The notes below the pieces were generated by a model. It did no database searches and was not told the DNA's origin. It saw only the letters and a program-made list of their open reading frames with translations. From NCBI RefSeq assembly GCF_018070565.1, contig NZ_JAGPXL010000004.1:124001-188000 (forward strand): a DNA stretch of 64,000 bases, written 5' to 3'. The first letter of the stretch is position 1; each line of letters begins with the position of its first letter. This DNA comes from Streptomyces sp. B93. Its GTDB lineage: Bacteria; Actinomycetota; Actinomycetes; Streptomycetales; Streptomycetaceae. A program made the position numbers and the translations under genes. Below are positions 19,249 to 27,568 of this stretch, piece by piece.

Positions 19249-20106
19249 GTGACGGAAGACACCGCCGCGCGGTCGTCCGGGTACCCGGACGGACAGCCGC
19301 GCATGGGCTTCTTCACGGACACCTCGGTCTGCATCGGCTGCAAGGCCTGCGAGGTCGCCTGCAAGGAGTGGAACGCGATCCCGGCGGACGGCCTGGAACT
19401 GACCGGCATGTCGTACGACAACACCGGCGGGCTGGGCGCCGACACCTGGCGGCACGTCGCCTTCGTCGAGCAGCGGGTGCCCGCCGACGTGGACGTCTTC
19501 ACGGCCGCCCGTGACCTGGAGCCGGAGGGCCCCGGCGGCGAGCTGCGCTGGCTGATGTCGTCGGACGTGTGCAAGCACTGCACCCACGCCGCCTGTCTCG
19601 ATGTGTGCCCGACCGGCTCGTTGTTCCGGACGGAGTTCGGCACGGTCGTCGTCCAGGAGGACATCTGCAACGGCTGCGGTTACTGCGTCCCCGCCTGCCC
19701 GTACGGCGTCATCGACCAGCGCCGCGAGGACGGCCGGGCCTGGAAGTGCACCCTGTGCTACGACCGGCTCGGCGTCGGCATGGAACCGGCCTGCGCCAAG
19801 GCCTGCCCGACCGAGTCCATCCAGTTCGGCCCGCTGGACGAGCTGCGCGAGCGGGCGGCGGGCCGGGTGGCCGCGCTGCACGCCACCGGTGTCACGGACG
19901 CCCGCCTCTACGGTGCGGACCCGCAGGACGGCGTCGGCGGGGACGGGGCGTTCTTCCTGCTGCTGGACGAGCCGGAGGTCTACGGTCTGCCGCCGGACCC
20001 GGTCGTCACCACACGTGATCTGCCCGCCATGTGGCGGCACGCGGCGGCGGCAGCGGTGTCGTTGGCGGCGCTGGCCGCCGTGAGCTTCGCCAGGGGGCCG
20101 CGTTGA
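19249..20106 (+). CDS. fdhB: Formate dehydrogenase iron-sulfur subunit (beta)
   Basis: A 285-residue electron-transfer subunit with four ferredoxin-type cysteine clusters (CIGCKACEVACKEWN, CKHCTHAACLDVCPTGS, CNGCGYCVPACPYG, CTLCYDRLGVGMEPACAKACP), enough for four [4Fe-4S] centres. A single hydrophobic helix close to the C-terminus (WRHAAAAAVSLAALAAVSF) should tether it to the membrane, as in E. coli FdnH. No Tat signal is present. The GTG start follows GAGGAG seven bases ahead. It is the first gene of the FDH operon and passes electrons from FdhA to the NrfD-like anchor. Confidence 0.92.
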   Translation: MTEDTAARSSGYPDGQPRMGFFTDTSVCIGCKACEVACKEWNAIPADGLELTGMSYDNTGGLGADTWRHVAFVEQRVPADVDVFTAARDLEPEGPGGELRWLMSSDVCKHCTHAACLDVCPTGSLFRTEFGTVVVQEDICNGCGYCVPACPYGVIDQRREDGRAWKCTLCYDRLGVGMEPACAKACPTESIQFGPLDELRERAAGRVAALHATGVTDARLYGADPQDGVGGDGAFFLLLDEPEVYGLPPDPVVTTRDLPAMWRHAAAAAVSLAALAAVSFARGPR

Positions 20107-21038
20107 CCGCCACGCACCGCCGACGCCGGGGCCGCGGCGAGCGGCCGATGGTCCCCGAGGCGACGTTCGCCTCGTACTACGGCACCCCGGTCCTCAACCG
20201 CCCGACCTGGAAGGCCCTCGACATCGCGGGCTATCTCTTCCTCGGCGGTCTCGCCGGGGCGTCCTCGCTGCTGGCCGCCGGGGCCGAGGCCACCGCCCGG
20301 CCCGCGGTGGCCCGGGTGGCGAAGCTGGGTGCGGCGGGCGCGGTCTCCGCGTCGCTCGGGCTGCTGGTGCACGACCTGGGCCGCCCGTCCCGGTTCCTGA
20401 ACATGCTGCGGGTCTGCAAGCCCACCTCGCCGATGAGCGTCGGTTCCTGGCTGCTGGCGGGCTACGCGCCGCTCACCCTGACCGCCGCCGCCACCGACGT
20501 GGCGGGCCGCTTCCGGATCGTGGGCCGGGCCGCCGCCCTGTCCGCGGCGGTGCTGGGCCCGGTGGTCACCACGTACACCGCGGTCCTCATCGCCGACACC
20601 GCGGTGCCGTCGTGGCACGACGCCCACCGGGAGCTGCCGTTCGTCTTCGCCGGTTCCGGTGCGACGGCGGCGGCCGGGCTGGCGCTCGTGGGCGCACCGG
20701 CCGGGCAGACCGGTCCCGCGCGCCGGATGGCCGTGCTGGGCGCCGCCCTCGAAGTGGGTGCCTTCCGGCTGATGCGGCGGCGCATGGGGCTGACGGCGGA
20801 GCCGTACGAGCGGGGCCTGCTGCGCGCGGCCGAGGCGCTCACGGCCTCCGGCGCCGCGCTGGCGGGCCTGCGGGGCGGCCGGGTGCCCGGCGCGGTCGCG
20901 GGCGCGGCGCTGCTGGCGGGTTCGGCGGCGCTGCGGTTCGGGGTGTTCCACGCCGGCGTGGCGTCCGCACAGGACCCGAAGTACACCGTCGTACCCCAGC
21001 GGGAGCGGCTCGCCGCCCGCGCGCGGGAAGGGACGTGA
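20103..21038 (+). CDS. nrfD: NrfD/PsrC-type membrane anchor of formate dehydrogenase
   Basis: A 311-residue protein with about eight to nine hydrophobic helices. It belongs to the NrfD/PsrC family that exchanges electrons with the quinone pool without haem. The TTG start overlaps the fdhB stop (TTGA) and has AGGGGG five bases before it. An in-frame ATG at 20148 (MVPEATFASYYG) is the alternative, but the basic RRRGRGERP stretch before it looks like coding sequence. It replaces the cytochrome b subunit of FdnGHI-type enzymes. Confidence 0.85.
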   Translation: MTATHRRRRGRGERPMVPEATFASYYGTPVLNRPTWKALDIAGYLFLGGLAGASSLLAAGAEATARPAVARVAKLGAAGAVSASLGLLVHDLGRPSRFLNMLRVCKPTSPMSVGSWLLAGYAPLTLTAAATDVAGRFRIVGRAAALSAAVLGPVVTTYTAVLIADTAVPSWHDAHRELPFVFAGSGATAAAGLALVGAPAGQTGPARRMAVLGAALEVGAFRLMRRRMGLTAEPYERGLLRAAEALTASGAALAGLRGGRVPGAVAGAALLAGSAALRFGVFHAGVASAQDPKYTVVPQRERLAARAREGT

Positions 21039-21042
21039 GGAC

Positions 21043-24000
21043 ATGGGCGTACGCACCTGGATCGACTCCTGGCCGGTCTACCGGCAGCTCACCGGCACGG
21101 ACCCCCTCGGCCGGGGAGCCGCCGCGAAGAGCGGCGCCCGGCGCACGCCCCGGGTCGCGTCGGCGGACCGGGTGGTGAAGTCGGTCTGCCCGTACTGCGC
21201 CGTGGGCTGCGGGCAGAACGTGTACGTCGAGGACGACCGCGTCACCCAGATCGAGGGCGACCCCGACTCGCCCGTCTCCCGGGGGCGGTTGTGCCCCAAG
21301 GGCGCGGCGAGCCTCCAGCTGACGACCGGGGGCGCCCGCGAGCACCATGTGCTGTACCGCGCGCCGTACGCCGCCGAGTGGGAGCGTCTCGACCTCGACA
21401 CGGCGATGGACATGATCGCGGACCGGGTGATCGAGGCGCGCCGGGCGGGCTGGCAGTGGGAGGTCGACGCGGCCCGCACCCGGCGCACGCTGGGCATCGC
21501 GAGCCTGGGCGGGGCCACGCTCGACAACGAGGAGAACTACCTGATCAAGAAGTTGTTCACCGCCCTGGGCGCCGTACAGATCGAGAACCAGGCGCGTATT
21601 TGACACTCCGCCACCGTTCCCGGTCTGGGAACCTCGTTCGGCCGCGGCGGCGCGACCACCTTCCAGCAGGACCTCCAGAACAGCGACTGCATCGTCATCC
21701 AGGGCTCGAACATGGCCGAGTGCCATCCGGTCGGGTTCCAGTGGGTGATGGAGGCCCGGGCACGCGGCGCGAAGGTGATCCACGTCGACCCGCGCTTCAC
21801 CCGCACCAGCGCGCTGGCCGACCTGCACGTGCCGCTGCGCGCGGGCTCGGACATCGCCTTCCTCGGCGGGATCATCAACCACGTCCTGACGAACGAGGCG
21901 TACTTCCGGGAGTACGTGGTGGCCTACACCAACGGGCCGGTGATCCTGCGGGAGGACTTCCGTGACACGGAGGACCTCGACGGCGTCTTCTCCGGCCTCG
22001 ACCCGGACGGCCGCGGCTACGACAACGACAGCTGGCAGTACGCGGGTACGGAGGTGCAGGCGGCGTCGGGCCAGCGGGACCAGCTGTACGAGCGGCGCAC
22101 CGCCGTCGACGAACACGCCGTCGCGGAGGAGGCGGGCGGTGAGGCGCACGGCTCGGGCGGTCCCGACATCGGCGGCGGCGAGCCCGAACGCGACGAGACG
22201 CTGACCGACCCGCGCTGCGTCCTCCAGGTCCTCAAACGCCACTACGCCCGCTACACGCCCGAGGCGGTGGAACGGATCTGCGGTGTCCCGCGGGAGGTGT
22301 TCCGCCAGGTGTGCGAGCTGGTCACGGCGAACTCCGGTCGGGAGCGGACCACCGCGTTCGCCTACGCCGTCGGCTGGACCCAGCACACGGTGGGCGTGCA
22401 GTACATCCGCGCGGCCTCCGTGCTCCAGAGCCTGCTGGGCAACATCGGCAGGCCGGGCGGCGGCATCCTGGCGCTGCGCGGGCACGCCTCCATCCAGGGC
22501 TCGACGGACATCCCCACCCTGTTCAACCTGCTGCCCGGCTACATCCCCATGCCGCACGCGCACGAGAACCAGGACCTCGACACCTTCGTCCGCGCGGACG
22601 CCTCCCGCAAGGGCTACTGGGGCAACATGCGCGCCTACCTGGTCAGTCTGCTCAAGGCGTACTGGGGCGAGGCGGCGACGGCGGAGAACGACTTCCGCTT
22701 CGACTACCTCCCGCGGCTGACCGGTTCGCACTCCACCTACGAGACGGTCACGGCCCAGCTGGAGGGCGTGTGCAAGGGCTACTTCCTGATGGGCGAGAAC
22801 CCGGCCGTCGGCTCCGCCAACGCCAAGATGCAGCGCCTGGGCATGGCGAACCTGGACTGGCTCGTCGTACGGGACTTCTCCCTCATCGAGTCGGCGACCT
22901 GGTGGCGGGACGGCCCGGAGATCGAGAGCGGTGAGCTGCGCACGGAGGAGATCGGCACGGAGGTGTTCTTCCTCCCGGCCGCCGCGCACATCGAGAAGGA
23001 CGGCACGTTCACCAACACCCAGCGGCTGCTGCAATGGCATCACCAGGCCGTGGAGCCGCCCGGCGAGGCGCGCAGCGACCTGTGGTTCACGTACCACCTC
23101 GGACGGCTCGTCCGGCAGAAGCTCGCCGCCTCCACCGACCCGATGGACCGCCCGCTGCTCGATCTGACCTGGGACTACCCGACCAGGGGTCCGCTCGCCG
23201 AGCCGGATGCCGCCGCCGTCCTCGCCGAGATCAACGGCCACGGCCCCGACGGGACCCCGCTCGGCTCCTACGAGCAGCTCCGCGCGGACGGCTCGACGTC
23301 GTGCGGCTGCTGGATCTACTGCGGGGTGTACGCCGACGGGGTGAACCAGTCGGCGCGCCGCACCCCGGGCGCGGAGCAGGACTGGGTGGCGGCCGAGTGG
23401 GGCTGGGCCTGGCCCGCGAACCGCCGGGTGCTGTACAACCGGGCCTCCGCCGACCCGGAGGGCCGCCCGTGGAGCGAGCGCAAGGCACTCGTCTGGTGGG
23501 ACGCGGAACGCGGCGAGTGGACCGGCCACGACGTCCCCGACTTCAAGAAGGACCAGGCACCCGACCACACTCCCCCGCCGGACGCCACCGGTCCCGAGGC
23601 GCTGGGCGGCACGGACGCCTTCATCATGCAGGCCGACGGCAAGGCCTGGCTGTACGTCCCGTCCGGCCTCACCGACGGCCCGCTGCCCACCCACTACGAA
23701 CCGCAGGACTCCCCGTTCCCCAACCTCCTGTACGGCCAGCAGCGCAACCCGGTACGGCACTTGCCGCCCCCGCACCCCGACAACCGCTACCAGCCCGGCC
23801 CCGCCGACCCCGGCTCCCTGGTGTTCCCCTACGTCGCCACGACGTACCGCCTCACCGAGCACCACACCGCGGGCGGCATGTCCCGCTGGCAGCCCTACCT
23901 GGCGGAGCTGCAACCGGAGTTCTTCTGCGAGGTGTCACCGGCGCTCGCCGCCGAGCGGGGCCTGGAACACACCGGCTGGGCGACGGTCGTCAGCGCCCGC

Positions 24001-24300
24001 GGGGTGATCGAGGCGAGGGTCCTGGTCACCGACCGGATGCCGCCCCTGACCGTGCACGGCCGCCCGCTCCACCAGGTGGGCCTGCCCTACCACTGGGGCC
24101 CGAACGGCCACACCACCGGCGACGCCGCCAACGAACTGCTCCACCTCTCCCTCGACCCCAACACCCACATCCAGGAGGCCAAGGCCTTCGCCGTCGACAT
24201 CCGCCCCGGCCGCCGCCCCCGCGGTCCGGCCGCCCCCGCCCTGGTACGCGCCTACCGGGCACGCGCGGGCATCGACGAGAACACCGGCAGGGAGATGTGA
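21043..24300 (+). CDS. fdhA: Selenocysteine-containing formate dehydrogenase catalytic subunit (alpha)
   Basis: A 1085-residue protein if the in-frame TGA at 21601-21603 is read as selenocysteine (Sec187). Before it the frame carries the [4Fe-4S] site Cys49, Cys52, Cys56 and Cys84 (CPYCAVGC...GRLCPKG). The context NQARI-Sec-HSATVPGLGTSFGRG matches the Sec site of FDH-N type enzymes, and the same frame continues without a stop for 899 codons through DPRFTRTSALAD and the C-terminal molybdopterin-binding domain. It oxidises formate to CO2 at the Mo/W centre. No Tat signal is seen, so it probably faces the cytoplasm. tRNA-Sec, selB and selA follow directly. Confidence 0.93.
21601..21632 (+). promoter_or_regulatory. 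Selenocysteine UGA and SECIS-like hairpin
   Basis: The UGA (21601-21603) is followed after 12 bases by GTTCCC (21616-21621), loop GGTCT (21622-21626) and GGGAAC (21627-21632). This is a 6-bp stem with the same GGUCU apical loop that I recall in the E. coli fdhF SECIS, at a similar distance. Bacterial SelB binds this loop to deliver Sec-tRNA. Confidence 0.85.
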
Positions 24301-24327
24301 GCCGGCTCCGGTAGCCTGGCCGGGCGT

Positions 24328-24423
24328 GGAGGCGTGTGGGTGCCTGGTGGCCCTCCCGGTCTTCAAAACCGAGGTGCCCGAGGATCTCGGGCAGGCAGGT
24401 TCGATTCCTGTCCGCCTCCGCCA
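24328..24423 (+). tRNA. selC: tRNA-Sec (anticodon TCA)
   Basis: A 96-base tRNA with encoded CCA. The acceptor starts GGAGGCG and pairs with CGCCTCC. The anticodon loop CTTCAAA (24361-24367) gives TCA. A long extra arm forms GCCCGAG/CTCGGGC, and the T arm GCAGG-TTCGATT-CCTGT matches E. coli tRNA-Sec. Acceptor pair 8 looks like a T-C mismatch. It lies 27 bases after fdhA and converges with selB. Confidence 0.93.
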
Positions 24424-24437
24424 TCGCCCCTGTCTCG

Positions 24438-26210
24438 CTACCGGCACCGGCGCCGCTGGTCGTCCACCCGTTCGGTGTAGCCGCGCGTGTCCAGGAACTC
24501 CAGCAGCGGTACGGCGACCCGGCGGGTGGTGTCCAGGGCGCGGCGGGCCTCGCTGGTCGTGAAGGGCTGGGGCAGGTCGCGCAGGACGGCGGCGGCCCGC
24601 GCGTCGGCGCCCGGCAGCAGGACGATGCCGTCGCCGACCTTCAGCAGTGCGCCCGCGGTGACGGCGGCGGCCAGGGCCTTGCGGGTGAGGCCGAGTTCGG
24701 TGAGGTGGTGTGCCTCGGGGGCGCGGAAGGGGGCCTCGGTCAGCTCGGCGCGCACGGTGTCGACGGCGGCGCTGAGGTGGGGCGGCAGGGCGGGGGCGGC
24801 GCTCGTGGTGCCGTACAACTTGCCGTTGCGCTGGTGCAGTTGGCGGTTTCCGGGGGTGGTGGTGAGCGCGTCGATCAGGGTGCGGTCGGGCAGCGCCAGG
24901 AGGCGGCGGGCCGCCTCGGTGGGCAGGCCGGGGTCGAGGGGGTCGCGGGAGGCGTGCCGGTCGACCTCCTGGGACAGGCGTTCGCGCAGCGCGGCCCAGT
25001 GGGCCGGGTCGGCCAGCCAGTCGCCGGTGACGGGTTCGAAGGGGGCGGGGACGCCCATGGCGTGGAGTTCGCCGCGGCGTACGAGGTGACGGCGGCGGAG
25101 TTCGGAGGCGGCGTCCGGGGTGCCGGTCAGGGTGGCCAGTTCGGCGGCTCGGGCGCGGGCGGCCCCGCGTCGGGTCAGCCGGGGTGGCCGTACGTCGAGG
25201 AGGGTCACCGCGGAGGGGGTGCGGGGGCCGCCCGGCTGCCGCAGCACCGCCCGGTCGCCGACGCGCAGCGGCAGTTCCCGGGCGAGGGTGAGGCGGGCGG
25301 TGTCGGTGCCGAGCGGGCGGACGGTCACGGGGACGGCGGCGGTGCCGAAGTGCAGGGTGGCCTGCCGGGGCAGTTCGGCGACGGGGGTGCCGGTGACGCG
25401 TACGTCGGTCACGGAGGTGGGCAGCCAGCGGCCTGGGGTGAGCAGTACCTGACCGCGCGTCAGCAGTCCGTCGGGGGCGCCGTGCACGTTGACCGCCACC
25501 CGCGCCACCGCGCCGACCTCGTCCCGGTCCTCGTTCAGGCACTGGAGGCCGCGCACCCGCAGCACCGTCGTGCCGTCCCCGGCCGTCAGCCGGTCGCCGA
25601 CGCGGAGGGTGCCCGCGGCCAGGGTGCCGGTGACGACGGTGCCGTGTCCGCGCACGGTGAAGGCGCGGTCCAGCCACAGCCGGACGTCCGCGTCGGCAGG
25701 GGGCACGGGCAGGGCGCGGGCCAGCCGGGACAGTTCGGCGCGCAGCGCGCTCAGGCCCTGCCCGGTCACCGCGCTGACCTCGACGCAGGGCGCGGCGCCG
25801 AGGGAGGTCGCCGCGAGGCGTTGGGCCGCGTCCGCGCGCACCGGCGCCGGGTCGGCCAGGTCGCCGCGGGTGACGGCGAGCACGGCGTGCCGGACGCCGA
25901 GGGCGTGCAGGATCTCCAGGTGTTCCTGGGACTGCCGCTGCCAGCCCTGGTCGGCGGCGACGACGAACAGCACGGCGGGCACCGGGCCGACGCCGGCCAG
26001 CATGGTGGCGACGAAGCGTTCGTGGCCGGGCACGTCGACGAAGGCGAGGGGTTCGCCGTCGGGCGGGAGGCCGGTCCAGACGAAGCCGAGGTCGAGGGTG
26101 AGGCCGCGGCGCCGTTCCTCGGCGAGCCGGTCGGGTTCCATCCCGGTCAGCGCCCGCACCAGCGCGGACTTGCCGTGGTCGACGTGCCCGGCGGTGGCCA
26201 GCACCCGCAT
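24438..26210 (-). CDS. selB: Selenocysteine-specific elongation factor SelB
   Basis: A 590-residue translational GTPase. G1 is GHVDHGKS, G3 DVPGHE and G4 TRGD, followed by EF-Tu-like beta-barrel domains and C-terminal winged helices (about 390-590) that bind the SECIS hairpin. It delivers Sec-tRNA to the UGA of fdhA. The ATG at 26210 has GGGAGGT ahead and lies five bases after the selA stop, so selA and selB form one operon, convergent with selC. Confidence 0.93.
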   Translation of the reverse strand: MRVLATAGHVDHGKSALVRALTGMEPDRLAEERRRGLTLDLGFVWTGLPPDGEPLAFVDVPGHERFVATMLAGVGPVPAVLFVVAADQGWQRQSQEHLEILHALGVRHAVLAVTRGDLADPAPVRADAAQRLAATSLGAAPCVEVSAVTGQGLSALRAELSRLARALPVPPADADVRLWLDRAFTVRGHGTVVTGTLAAGTLRVGDRLTAGDGTTVLRVRGLQCLNEDRDEVGAVARVAVNVHGAPDGLLTRGQVLLTPGRWLPTSVTDVRVTGTPVAELPRQATLHFGTAAVPVTVRPLGTDTARLTLARELPLRVGDRAVLRQPGGPRTPSAVTLLDVRPPRLTRRGAARARAAELATLTGTPDAASELRRRHLVRRGELHAMGVPAPFEPVTGDWLADPAHWAALRERLSQEVDRHASRDPLDPGLPTEAARRLLALPDRTLIDALTTTPGNRQLHQRNGKLYGTTSAAPALPPHLSAAVDTVRAELTEAPFRAPEAHHLTELGLTRKALAAAVTAGALLKVGDGIVLLPGADARAAAVLRDLPQPFTTSEARRALDTTRRVAVPLLEFLDTRGYTERVDDQRRRCR

Positions 26211-26215
26211 GACGG

Positions 26216-27568
26216 CTACCTCCCGGCCGCCGACCGCACTGCGGCGGCCAGCCGTTCGTCGTCCGCTTCGGGCACGGTCCGCAGGTCGAGCAGGCAGCGC
26301 CCGCTCGCCAGCCGTCCCACCACGGGGTCCGTCCCGGCGCGCAGGGCGGCGGCGTACCGCTCGGGCAGCGACAGCGCGGCGCTGGGCAGGGTGACGCCGG
26401 GCGCTCCCCCGCCGCCGACGGTGGCCTCGCTGTCGACGGCGTGGGCGTCGACGCCGTCCTCCGTGAGCGCGTGGGCGAGCCGTTCGGCGCGCTGCCGCAG
26501 CCGCGCCGGGTCGGCGGTCAGCGCCTCCCCGGTCGGGGTGCCGGGCCCGGTGAGGGTGGCCTCCAGGGCGGCCAGGGTCAGCTTGTCCACGCGCAGGGCG
26601 CGGGCCAGCGGATGCCGGGCCAGGGTGCCCACGACGTCCTGTGCGCCGAGGAGGAGGCCGCACTGCGGACCGCCGAGGAGTTTGTCGCCGCTGGCGGTGA
26701 CCAGGGCGGCCCCGGCGCGCAGTTGGGTCTGCGCGTCGGGTTCCCCGGGCAGCAGGGGGTGCGGGGCGAGCAGGCCGGAGCCGATGTCGACGACGACGGG
26801 GACGCCCAGCGGGACGAGTTCGGTGATGTCGGCGGCGCGGGTGAAGCCGGTGATCCGGAAGTTGGAGGGGTGCACCTTGAGCACGAAGGCGGTCCGCTCC
26901 CCGACGGCGGCGGCGTAGTCGGCGGGTGTGGTGCGGTTGGTGGTGCCGACCTCGCGCAGCCGGGCCCCGGTGGAGACCAGCAGGTCCGGCAGCCGGAAGC
27001 CGTCCCCGATCTCCACGAGTTCACCGCGGCCGACGATGATCTCCCGTCCGGCGGCGAGCGCGGTGGCGGCCAGCACCAGGGCGGCGGCGCCGTTGTTGAC
27101 CACGTGCGCGGCCTCGGCGGACGGCACCCGCTCGCGCAGGGCGGCCAGTGCGGTACGGCCGCGCCGGGCGCGTACGCCGGTGGTCAGGTCGAGTTCGACG
27201 TCGGTGGGTCCGGCGGCCTCGGCCACGGCCCGGCGGGCGGCGGCGGACAGCGGGGCGCGGCCGAGGTTGGTGTGCAGCAGCACACCGGTGGCGTTGACGA
27301 CGGGGCGCAGTCCGCCGGCGGTGCGCGGCAGCAGGGCGACCGCCGTGTCGGCCACCTCCTCCGGTGTGACGGCGCCCCGTCGCGCCCGCTCCTGGGCCTG
27401 CCGGACCGCCGACTTCACGGGCGTCTCGCCGAGCCGGGCCGCCGCCTCGCGCAGCCGTGGGTCGCGCAGCAGGGCGTCGGTGCGCGGGACCCGGCGGCGC
27501 GGGTCCGACGGCGGTGCGTCCACCTGGTGGTCCACGGGCCCCTCCGTAGTGCTGTGCGCGGCCTCCAT
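26216..27568 (-). CDS. selA: L-seryl-tRNA(Sec) selenium transferase
   Basis: A 450-residue PLP enzyme that converts Ser-tRNA-Sec to Sec-tRNA-Sec using selenophosphate. The motifs NATGVLLHTNLGRAPLS and GTTNRT, and the PLP lysine in SGDKLLGGPQCG, are all present. ATG 27568 has GGAGG only three bases ahead. GTG 27535 has GGAGG at a better five bases and would give 439 residues; both are possible. It is first in the selAB operon and divergent from mrpA. Confidence 0.92.
   Translation of the reverse strand: MEAAHSTTEGPVDHQVDAPPSDPRRRVPRTDALLRDPRLREAAARLGETPVKSAVRQAQERARRGAVTPEEVADTAVALLPRTAGGLRPVVNATGVLLHTNLGRAPLSAAARRAVAEAAGPTDVELDLTTGVRARRGRTALAALRERVPSAEAAHVVNNGAAALVLAATALAAGREIIVGRGELVEIGDGFRLPDLLVSTGARLREVGTTNRTTPADYAAAVGERTAFVLKVHPSNFRITGFTRAADITELVPLGVPVVVDIGSGLLAPHPLLPGEPDAQTQLRAGAALVTASGDKLLGGPQCGLLLGAQDVVGTLARHPLARALRVDKLTLAALEATLTGPGTPTGEALTADPARLRQRAERLAHALTEDGVDAHAVDSEATVGGGGAPGVTLPSAALSLPERYAAALRAGTDPVVGRLASGRCLLDLRTVPEADDERLAAAVRSAAGR

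Follow-up and report, generated by a model that had tools for sequence, protein, structure and literature searches.

We analyzed a 64,000-nucleotide stretch of the Streptomyces sp. B93 genome (contig NZ_JAGPXL010000004.1, positions 124,001 to 188,000; hereafter the window), in which fdhB, nrfD, fdhA, selC (the gene for the selenocysteine tRNA, tRNA-Sec), selB and selA lie together at 19249-27568, as an earlier note on this DNA had proposed. The gene content and its comparison with related genomes make it very probable that the locus encodes a selenocysteine (Sec)-containing formate dehydrogenase (FDH) beside SelA, SelB and tRNA-Sec, that the ancestral selD was deleted from it, and that SelD is now provided by a copy from another lineage. 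In agreement with the note, no selD was found in the window. The note had named the lack of a selD anywhere in the genome as a refutation; this objection fails, as a selD is encoded on contig C39 (370 bits; family cut-off 125).

The in-frame UGA of fdhA and its surroundings

The fdhA gene, encoding the catalytic subunit (21043..24300, plus strand), starts with the ATG at 21043, contains at codon 187 a UGA (21601..21603) predicted to be read as Sec, and is open again to the stop codon at 24298-24300. With the UGA counted as one residue, the product has 1085 residues, and the NCBIfam model NF041513 (formate_DH_Act) matches it through the UGA, over residues 6-1073 (2009.2 bits; cut-off 1400). FdhA also exceeds the cut-off for FDH-N type alpha subunits (TIGR01553, 916.7 versus 814.2 bits), and is homologous in two stretches, the better one at residues 378-1055, to structure-solved FDHs (PDB 1h0h, 1kqf and Sec-containing FDHs). 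Sec is the residue expected at the active-site metal of Sec FDHs. The concern that automated callers would split fdhA holds for a plain listing of open reading frames, which breaks the gene that the present reading mends, but the family has an NCBI model of its own, NF041513.

Among the 246 genomes of the genus, 64 contain an FdhA match with an E-value of at most 1e-200, and 34 of the 246 have UGA at the position of codon 187. Since the FDH match spans the UGA and the same codon is UGA in so many genomes, it is not there by chance. A tRNA-Sec scoring at least 70 bits occurs in 44 of the 246 genomes, the next score down being 51, and the weaker matches are probably serine and leucine tRNAs. As many as 33 of the 34 genomes with UGA in fdhA have such a tRNA-Sec, the exception being G102, a draft of about 1420 contigs. 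Thus, the conserved UGA, its association with tRNA-Sec and the family match past it support the proposed read-through to Sec well. The identity of codon 187 was determined in the Sec rows and in 12 Cys rows, and the other rows without a stop were presumed to be non-UGA; the codon lies outside three of these, namely the rows for G146, for G180 and for the second of the G045 copies, but G146 was separately found to have the UGA. In a midpoint-rooted tree of 48 fdhA rows, built without codon 187 and with one Sec gene entered twice, the 12 Cys rows, from 9 genomes, formed one clade (L071-L074, L123, L124 and L126-L131) beside the Sec forms with one change of state, consistent with a single Sec/Cys change. 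G096 and G169 each have, besides a Sec copy of fdhA, one that lacks an in-frame stop.

The UGA is followed by a hairpin of six base pairs (21616..21632, plus strand) resembling a selenocysteine insertion sequence (SECIS), with the apical loop GGUCU, a loop known from the E. coli fdhF SECIS. The consensus 3' of the UGA is GU[UC]CCC-[GA]GUCU-GGG[AG][AG]C, and all 24 unique Sec-form sequences that were folded form the hairpin (-9.0 to -15.4 kcal/mol). Furthermore, 91.8% of the alignment cells pair, as against at most 63.3% when the partner strand is slid, and the covariation score was reached by 5 of 500 shuffles. The silent sites are constrained here as well: in the same 48 rows, codons 188-199 of the Sec forms are near-frozen, ranking 9 of 929 overlapping codon windows counted from the lowest silent-site variation, whereas those of the Cys forms are ordinary, at rank 533 of 1010. 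The lowest variation in the Sec forms was found in codon windows starting at codons 212-216 and 1040-1042, not at the UGA. In addition, codons ending in A or T make up 47 of 1085 across fdhA but 5 of 11 in codons 186-196, a stretch chosen after looking and counted with the UGA, and 1 in 20,000 shuffles was as high.

The selC gene (24328..24423, plus strand), with its CCA end encoded, was assigned the anticodon UCA by ARAGORN, and the covariance-model check called for by the earlier note gave 76.5 bits with Rfam RF01852 (gathering cut-off 47; E 5.9e-14). Convergent with selC and separated from it by 14 nt is selB (24438..26210, minus strand), whose product passes the cut-offs for the Sec-specific elongation factor (TIGR00475, 248.1 versus 242.25 bits) and for the SelB winged helix (PF09107, SelB-wing_3, 56.2 versus 23.2 bits); it is followed by selA (26216..27568, minus strand), encoding a seryl-tRNA(Sec) selenium transferase well above the family cut-off (TIGR00474, 422.9 versus 267.9 bits). 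On the other side of fdhA, fdhB (19249..20106, plus strand) encodes the iron-sulphur (beta) subunit (Pfam Fer4_11, 82.6 bits), and nrfD (20103..21038, plus strand; start codon uncertain) encodes an NrfD-type membrane subunit (PF03916, 54.3 bits; cut-off 25.8). FdhB scores below the equivalog cut-off for FDH beta subunits (TIGR01582, 183.6 versus 334.7 bits), but is still a 4Fe-4S dicluster protein, and by their domain matches both products are of the right general families for FDH subunits. A search of the genome for fdhD, likewise advised earlier, located it on contig C45 (164.8 bits; cut-off 140.9), near a second, distant FdhA-like gene (38% identity over 159 residues; G000 C45:83679-89061).

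We thus propose that FdhA, FdhB and NrfD would form the catalytic, iron-sulphur and membrane subunits of one presumably active Sec-containing FDH. The selenophosphate would be made by the SelD from contig C39, SelA would convert the seryl-tRNA-Sec, and SelB and the hairpin closely following codon 187 would bring about decoding of the UGA as Sec.

Proposed loss of selD from the locus and the SelD of contig C39

We then compared the surroundings of selC in the 44 tRNA-Sec loci. In 41 of them selD and selC are no more than about 0.5 kb apart. The remaining three are the window, L111 with a distance of 6.5 kb, and L115, which is a contig of 3 kb. The order fdhA, selD (on the opposite strand), selC is found in 23 loci, and the window keeps, in place of this selD, a spacer of only 27 nt between the fdhA stop and selC (24301..24327). 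Within this spacer, the box ggtagcctg (24310..24318, plus strand), a possible -10 region of selC, has been retained: TAGCCT occurs within 40 nt upstream of tRNA-Sec in 24 of the 44 loci, namely 22 of the 23 with the order fdhA-selD-selC, L077 and the window. In the fdhA tree, the window copy groups with the one from G131 (support 99), and at the G131 locus (L087) selD is present. The CCA end is encoded in the selC of the window and in none of the 23 relatives with that order. The gap, together with the divergence of the C39 SelD described below, is most simply explained by loss of the old selD and its replacement by a foreign copy. The ancestral cluster would have carried selD between fdhA and selC; in the lineage of the window selD would have been deleted while the box upstream of selC was kept, and the SelD of a foreign lineage would now supply the cell. 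As it stands, selC is enclosed at 24298-24438 by convergent genes, fdhA at a distance of 27 nt and selB at 14 nt, so that fdhA transcripts may run into selC and selB transcripts against it. One may speculate that, with selC now 27 nt behind fdhA, read-through of the UGA favours transcription of the very tRNA that it needs.

The C39 SelD, the sole one of five matches in the genome above the SelD cut-off, passes two SelD equivalog cut-offs (369.8 versus 125 and 331.8 versus 299 bits) and has the motif GGGCACK near its start. It shares 55-61% identity (mean 57.6%) with 29 sampled SelDs of the genus, which average 82% (68-98%) among themselves. In a tree of this SelD, the 29 genus SelDs and 18 from other genera (L261 being omitted as a duplicate of L272), it fell into a clade (support 100) with a SelD of G520, a genome from a different family that has two SelDs; the identity of this pair is 63%. 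This G520 SelD adjoins SelA (49%) and SelB (50%) homologues, which indicates that the lineage of the C39 SelD works in a Sec context elsewhere. Around the C39 SelD itself, no other sel gene was found in a 19-kb stretch, and no neighbour besides SelD is conserved between it and the two SelD regions of G520.

G520 thus has two SelA/SelB/SelD sets on different contigs (L272 and L273), with SelA and SelB 49-68% identical to those of the window, and it is the SelD of the more distant set that is nearest to the C39 SelD. We also attempted to name the donor; among the matches listed from 394 genomes of the class, only G520 was clearly nearer (63%) and the rest reached at most 60%, and none is named. 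A more distant type of SelD, 40-41% identical to the C39 SelD, is present at G168:C51:570399-571460 and G229:C1:3052358-3053389; as G168 is outside the 44 genomes with a true tRNA-Sec, its SelD may be an orphan of another selenium pathway.

Several observations weigh against the proposed scheme. The 56-nt stretch around the UGA folds no better than shuffled sequences (z +0.65; 146 of 200 as good), and folding energy was consequently discarded as uninformative evidence for a SECIS. The Cys forms also fold a shorter hairpin at this place (-3.0 to -10.2 kcal/mol), so that the hairpin alone cannot separate Sec from Cys forms, and a single pair of it is changed on both sides, which 146 of 500 shuffles equal. 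Furthermore, the long branches (0.99 and 1.27) of the C39 and G520 SelDs leave their grouping not firm, and the fdhA-selC junction of the draft could possibly be an assembly slip.

Among the other explanations, the one that survives best is that the Sec system does not work, the C39 SelD being silent or serving another selenium pathway and fdhA being read only to codon 187. The divergence of this SelD and the lack of another sel gene in the 19 kb around it would fit, but its equivalog scores, its GGGCACK motif and the SelA and SelB homologues beside its nearest relative in G520 make such a failure improbable. Quite unlikely, too, is an assembly error at the fdhA-selC junction with the C39 SelD as an additional copy: the assembly is indeed a draft of 134 contigs, but the junction is internal to a contig of 274,799 bases and preserves both the stop codon of fdhA and the box ahead of selC, and the assembly holds a single SelD above the family cut-off. 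We found no point in favour of an ancestral locus without selD, later gained by the relatives, and consider it very unlikely, since selD stands beside selC in 41 of the 44 loci, distant ones included, and since the window fdhA groups with that of G131, whose locus has selD. Finally, the absence of unusual folding around the UGA would suit an fdhA pseudogene with an ordinary nonsense mutation and a decaying downstream frame, an explanation that is scarcely credible: 34 of 246 genomes share this UGA codon, tRNA-Sec, selA and selB adjoin the gene, the silent sites behind the UGA are constrained, and the family match continues to residue 1073.

Distribution of the Sec genes and a candidate membrane selenoprotein

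The earlier note had suggested that the locus could be transferred or lost as a whole. Its patchy presence and differing flanks bear this out, but the fdh and sel parts proved separable, and the window appears to have lost selD alone. When up to 6 kb of flanking DNA was searched for the predicted flank genes of the window (blastp, E 1e-20), none recurred, either at the selA end of 23 related loci or at the fdhB end of 9. Among pairs of loci, 44 of 276 share a flank gene at the selA end, and 1 of 45 at the fdhB end; the window locus thus occupies a site of its own, while some relatives share sites. In G092, G101, G043 and G169, fdhA and the sel genes are located apart; G033 was left out of this group because a piece of selB stands at the start of both of its contigs (L093 and L120), which makes a contig break likelier. 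The set therefore appears to move, but its parts also seem to move and vanish singly.

A tRNA-Sec without a UGA-type FDH (at the threshold of E 1e-200) occurs in 11 genomes, 2 of which (G037 and G156) have a Cys form and one of which, G050, is a draft of 82% completeness. The question why these relatives keep tRNA-Sec and the sel genes prompted a comparison of the reading frames near the sel genes; 9 of the 11 sel loci proved to encode a membrane protein, about 254 residues long, that contains the motif LSGSV-UGA-TRNS. In the genus search, 11 of 246 genomes encoded it, each copy having one in-frame UGA and each genome a tRNA-Sec; they are 10 of the 11 genomes without a UGA-type FDH, and G172, which has this FDH as well. 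No copy was found in G000, the genome of the window. The chance of this co-occurrence with tRNA-Sec is 1.9e-9 on the assumption of independent genomes, which they are not. In the locus L111 (G215), selA, selB, selC and selD are present, yet no UGA-type FDH and no copy of the membrane protein were found, and inspection by eye of 17 kb of G215 revealed no read-through frame.

A scan of one genome per species over 84,980 species yielded 127 relatives, 80 of which were retained, and the motif carried UGA in all 80 loci read (78 by a pattern accepting only stop or Cys, and L193 and L201 read separately). The carriers include Streptomyces, Actinomadura, Actinoallomurus, Actinophytocola, Micromonospora, Stackebrandtia, Thermomonospora and others (loci L106-L110, L112-L114, L116, L164-L174, L181-L260, L274 and L275; UGA, for example, at L190:8142-8144). 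A SECIS-like hairpin with a one-base bulge, mostly with the loop GGU, follows 3' of the UGA; 96.3% of its cells pair, as against at most 60.0% when slid, and two pairs are changed on both sides. However, the version slid by -1 exceeds the unslid one in double-change cells (6 versus 4) and in covariation score (0.133 versus 0.107), so that covariation does not settle this hairpin.

As for its identity, the membrane protein gave no Pfam match above cut-off (best 9.7 bits), no NCBIfam or PHROG match and no hmmsearch match among PDB sequences. Its predicted model (mean pLDDT 86.5) had no PDB match at E < 0.001, and the best Z, 6.3 to a chain of Na+-NQR, is at a level common for helical proteins. 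Near its gene in L190 lie the genes of a MauE protein (41.8 versus a cut-off of 27 bits) and of a peptidoglycan-binding protein, the other half of which, judged by eye, presumably resembles the methylamine dehydrogenase light chain. Our guess is a CcdA-like electron carrier, CcdA standing at rank 33 (E 2.5) among the PDB matches of the model. Nothing on the protein was found in open-licence papers, supplementary tables not being covered, and it is apparently an undescribed candidate selenoprotein family.

We are thus inclined, with some reserve, to regard Sec use in the genus as a kit whose parts are exchanged singly, with two alternative clients, a UGA-type FDH in 34 of 246 genomes and the candidate membrane selenoprotein in 11, and with the SelD of the window swapped for a foreign one. 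If so, a distant homologue would seem able to take the place of an essential Sec component while the remaining ones are kept, which makes the exchangeability of SelD testable.

Relation to known systems

The kind of locus described here is already known, and no report of a selD exchange was found in the literature searched, which is weak evidence of novelty. The alpha subunit is homologous in two stretches, though distant in sequence, to that of the FDHs 9qm0, 6sdv and 8cm4, titled selenocysteine-containing, as well as FDH-N (1kqf) and 1h0h; unlike in these solved enzymes, the membrane subunit of the window is of the NrfD type. In Streptomyces incarnatus NRRL8089, a Sec-containing FDH-O with a SECIS, and selABCD as a cluster, were reported in 2015 (PMC4498112). 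Both systems share a Sec-containing FDH with the sel genes nearby, the UGA in S. incarnatus being directly followed by the SECIS, but the window cluster lacks selD, and a divergent selD is encoded elsewhere in the genome. Transfer among actinobacteria of Sec genes very close to FDH, or in one operon with it, is described in passages of PMC5029168; the window shows the same closeness to FDH as the sets described there, whereas one member of its set seems to have been exchanged.

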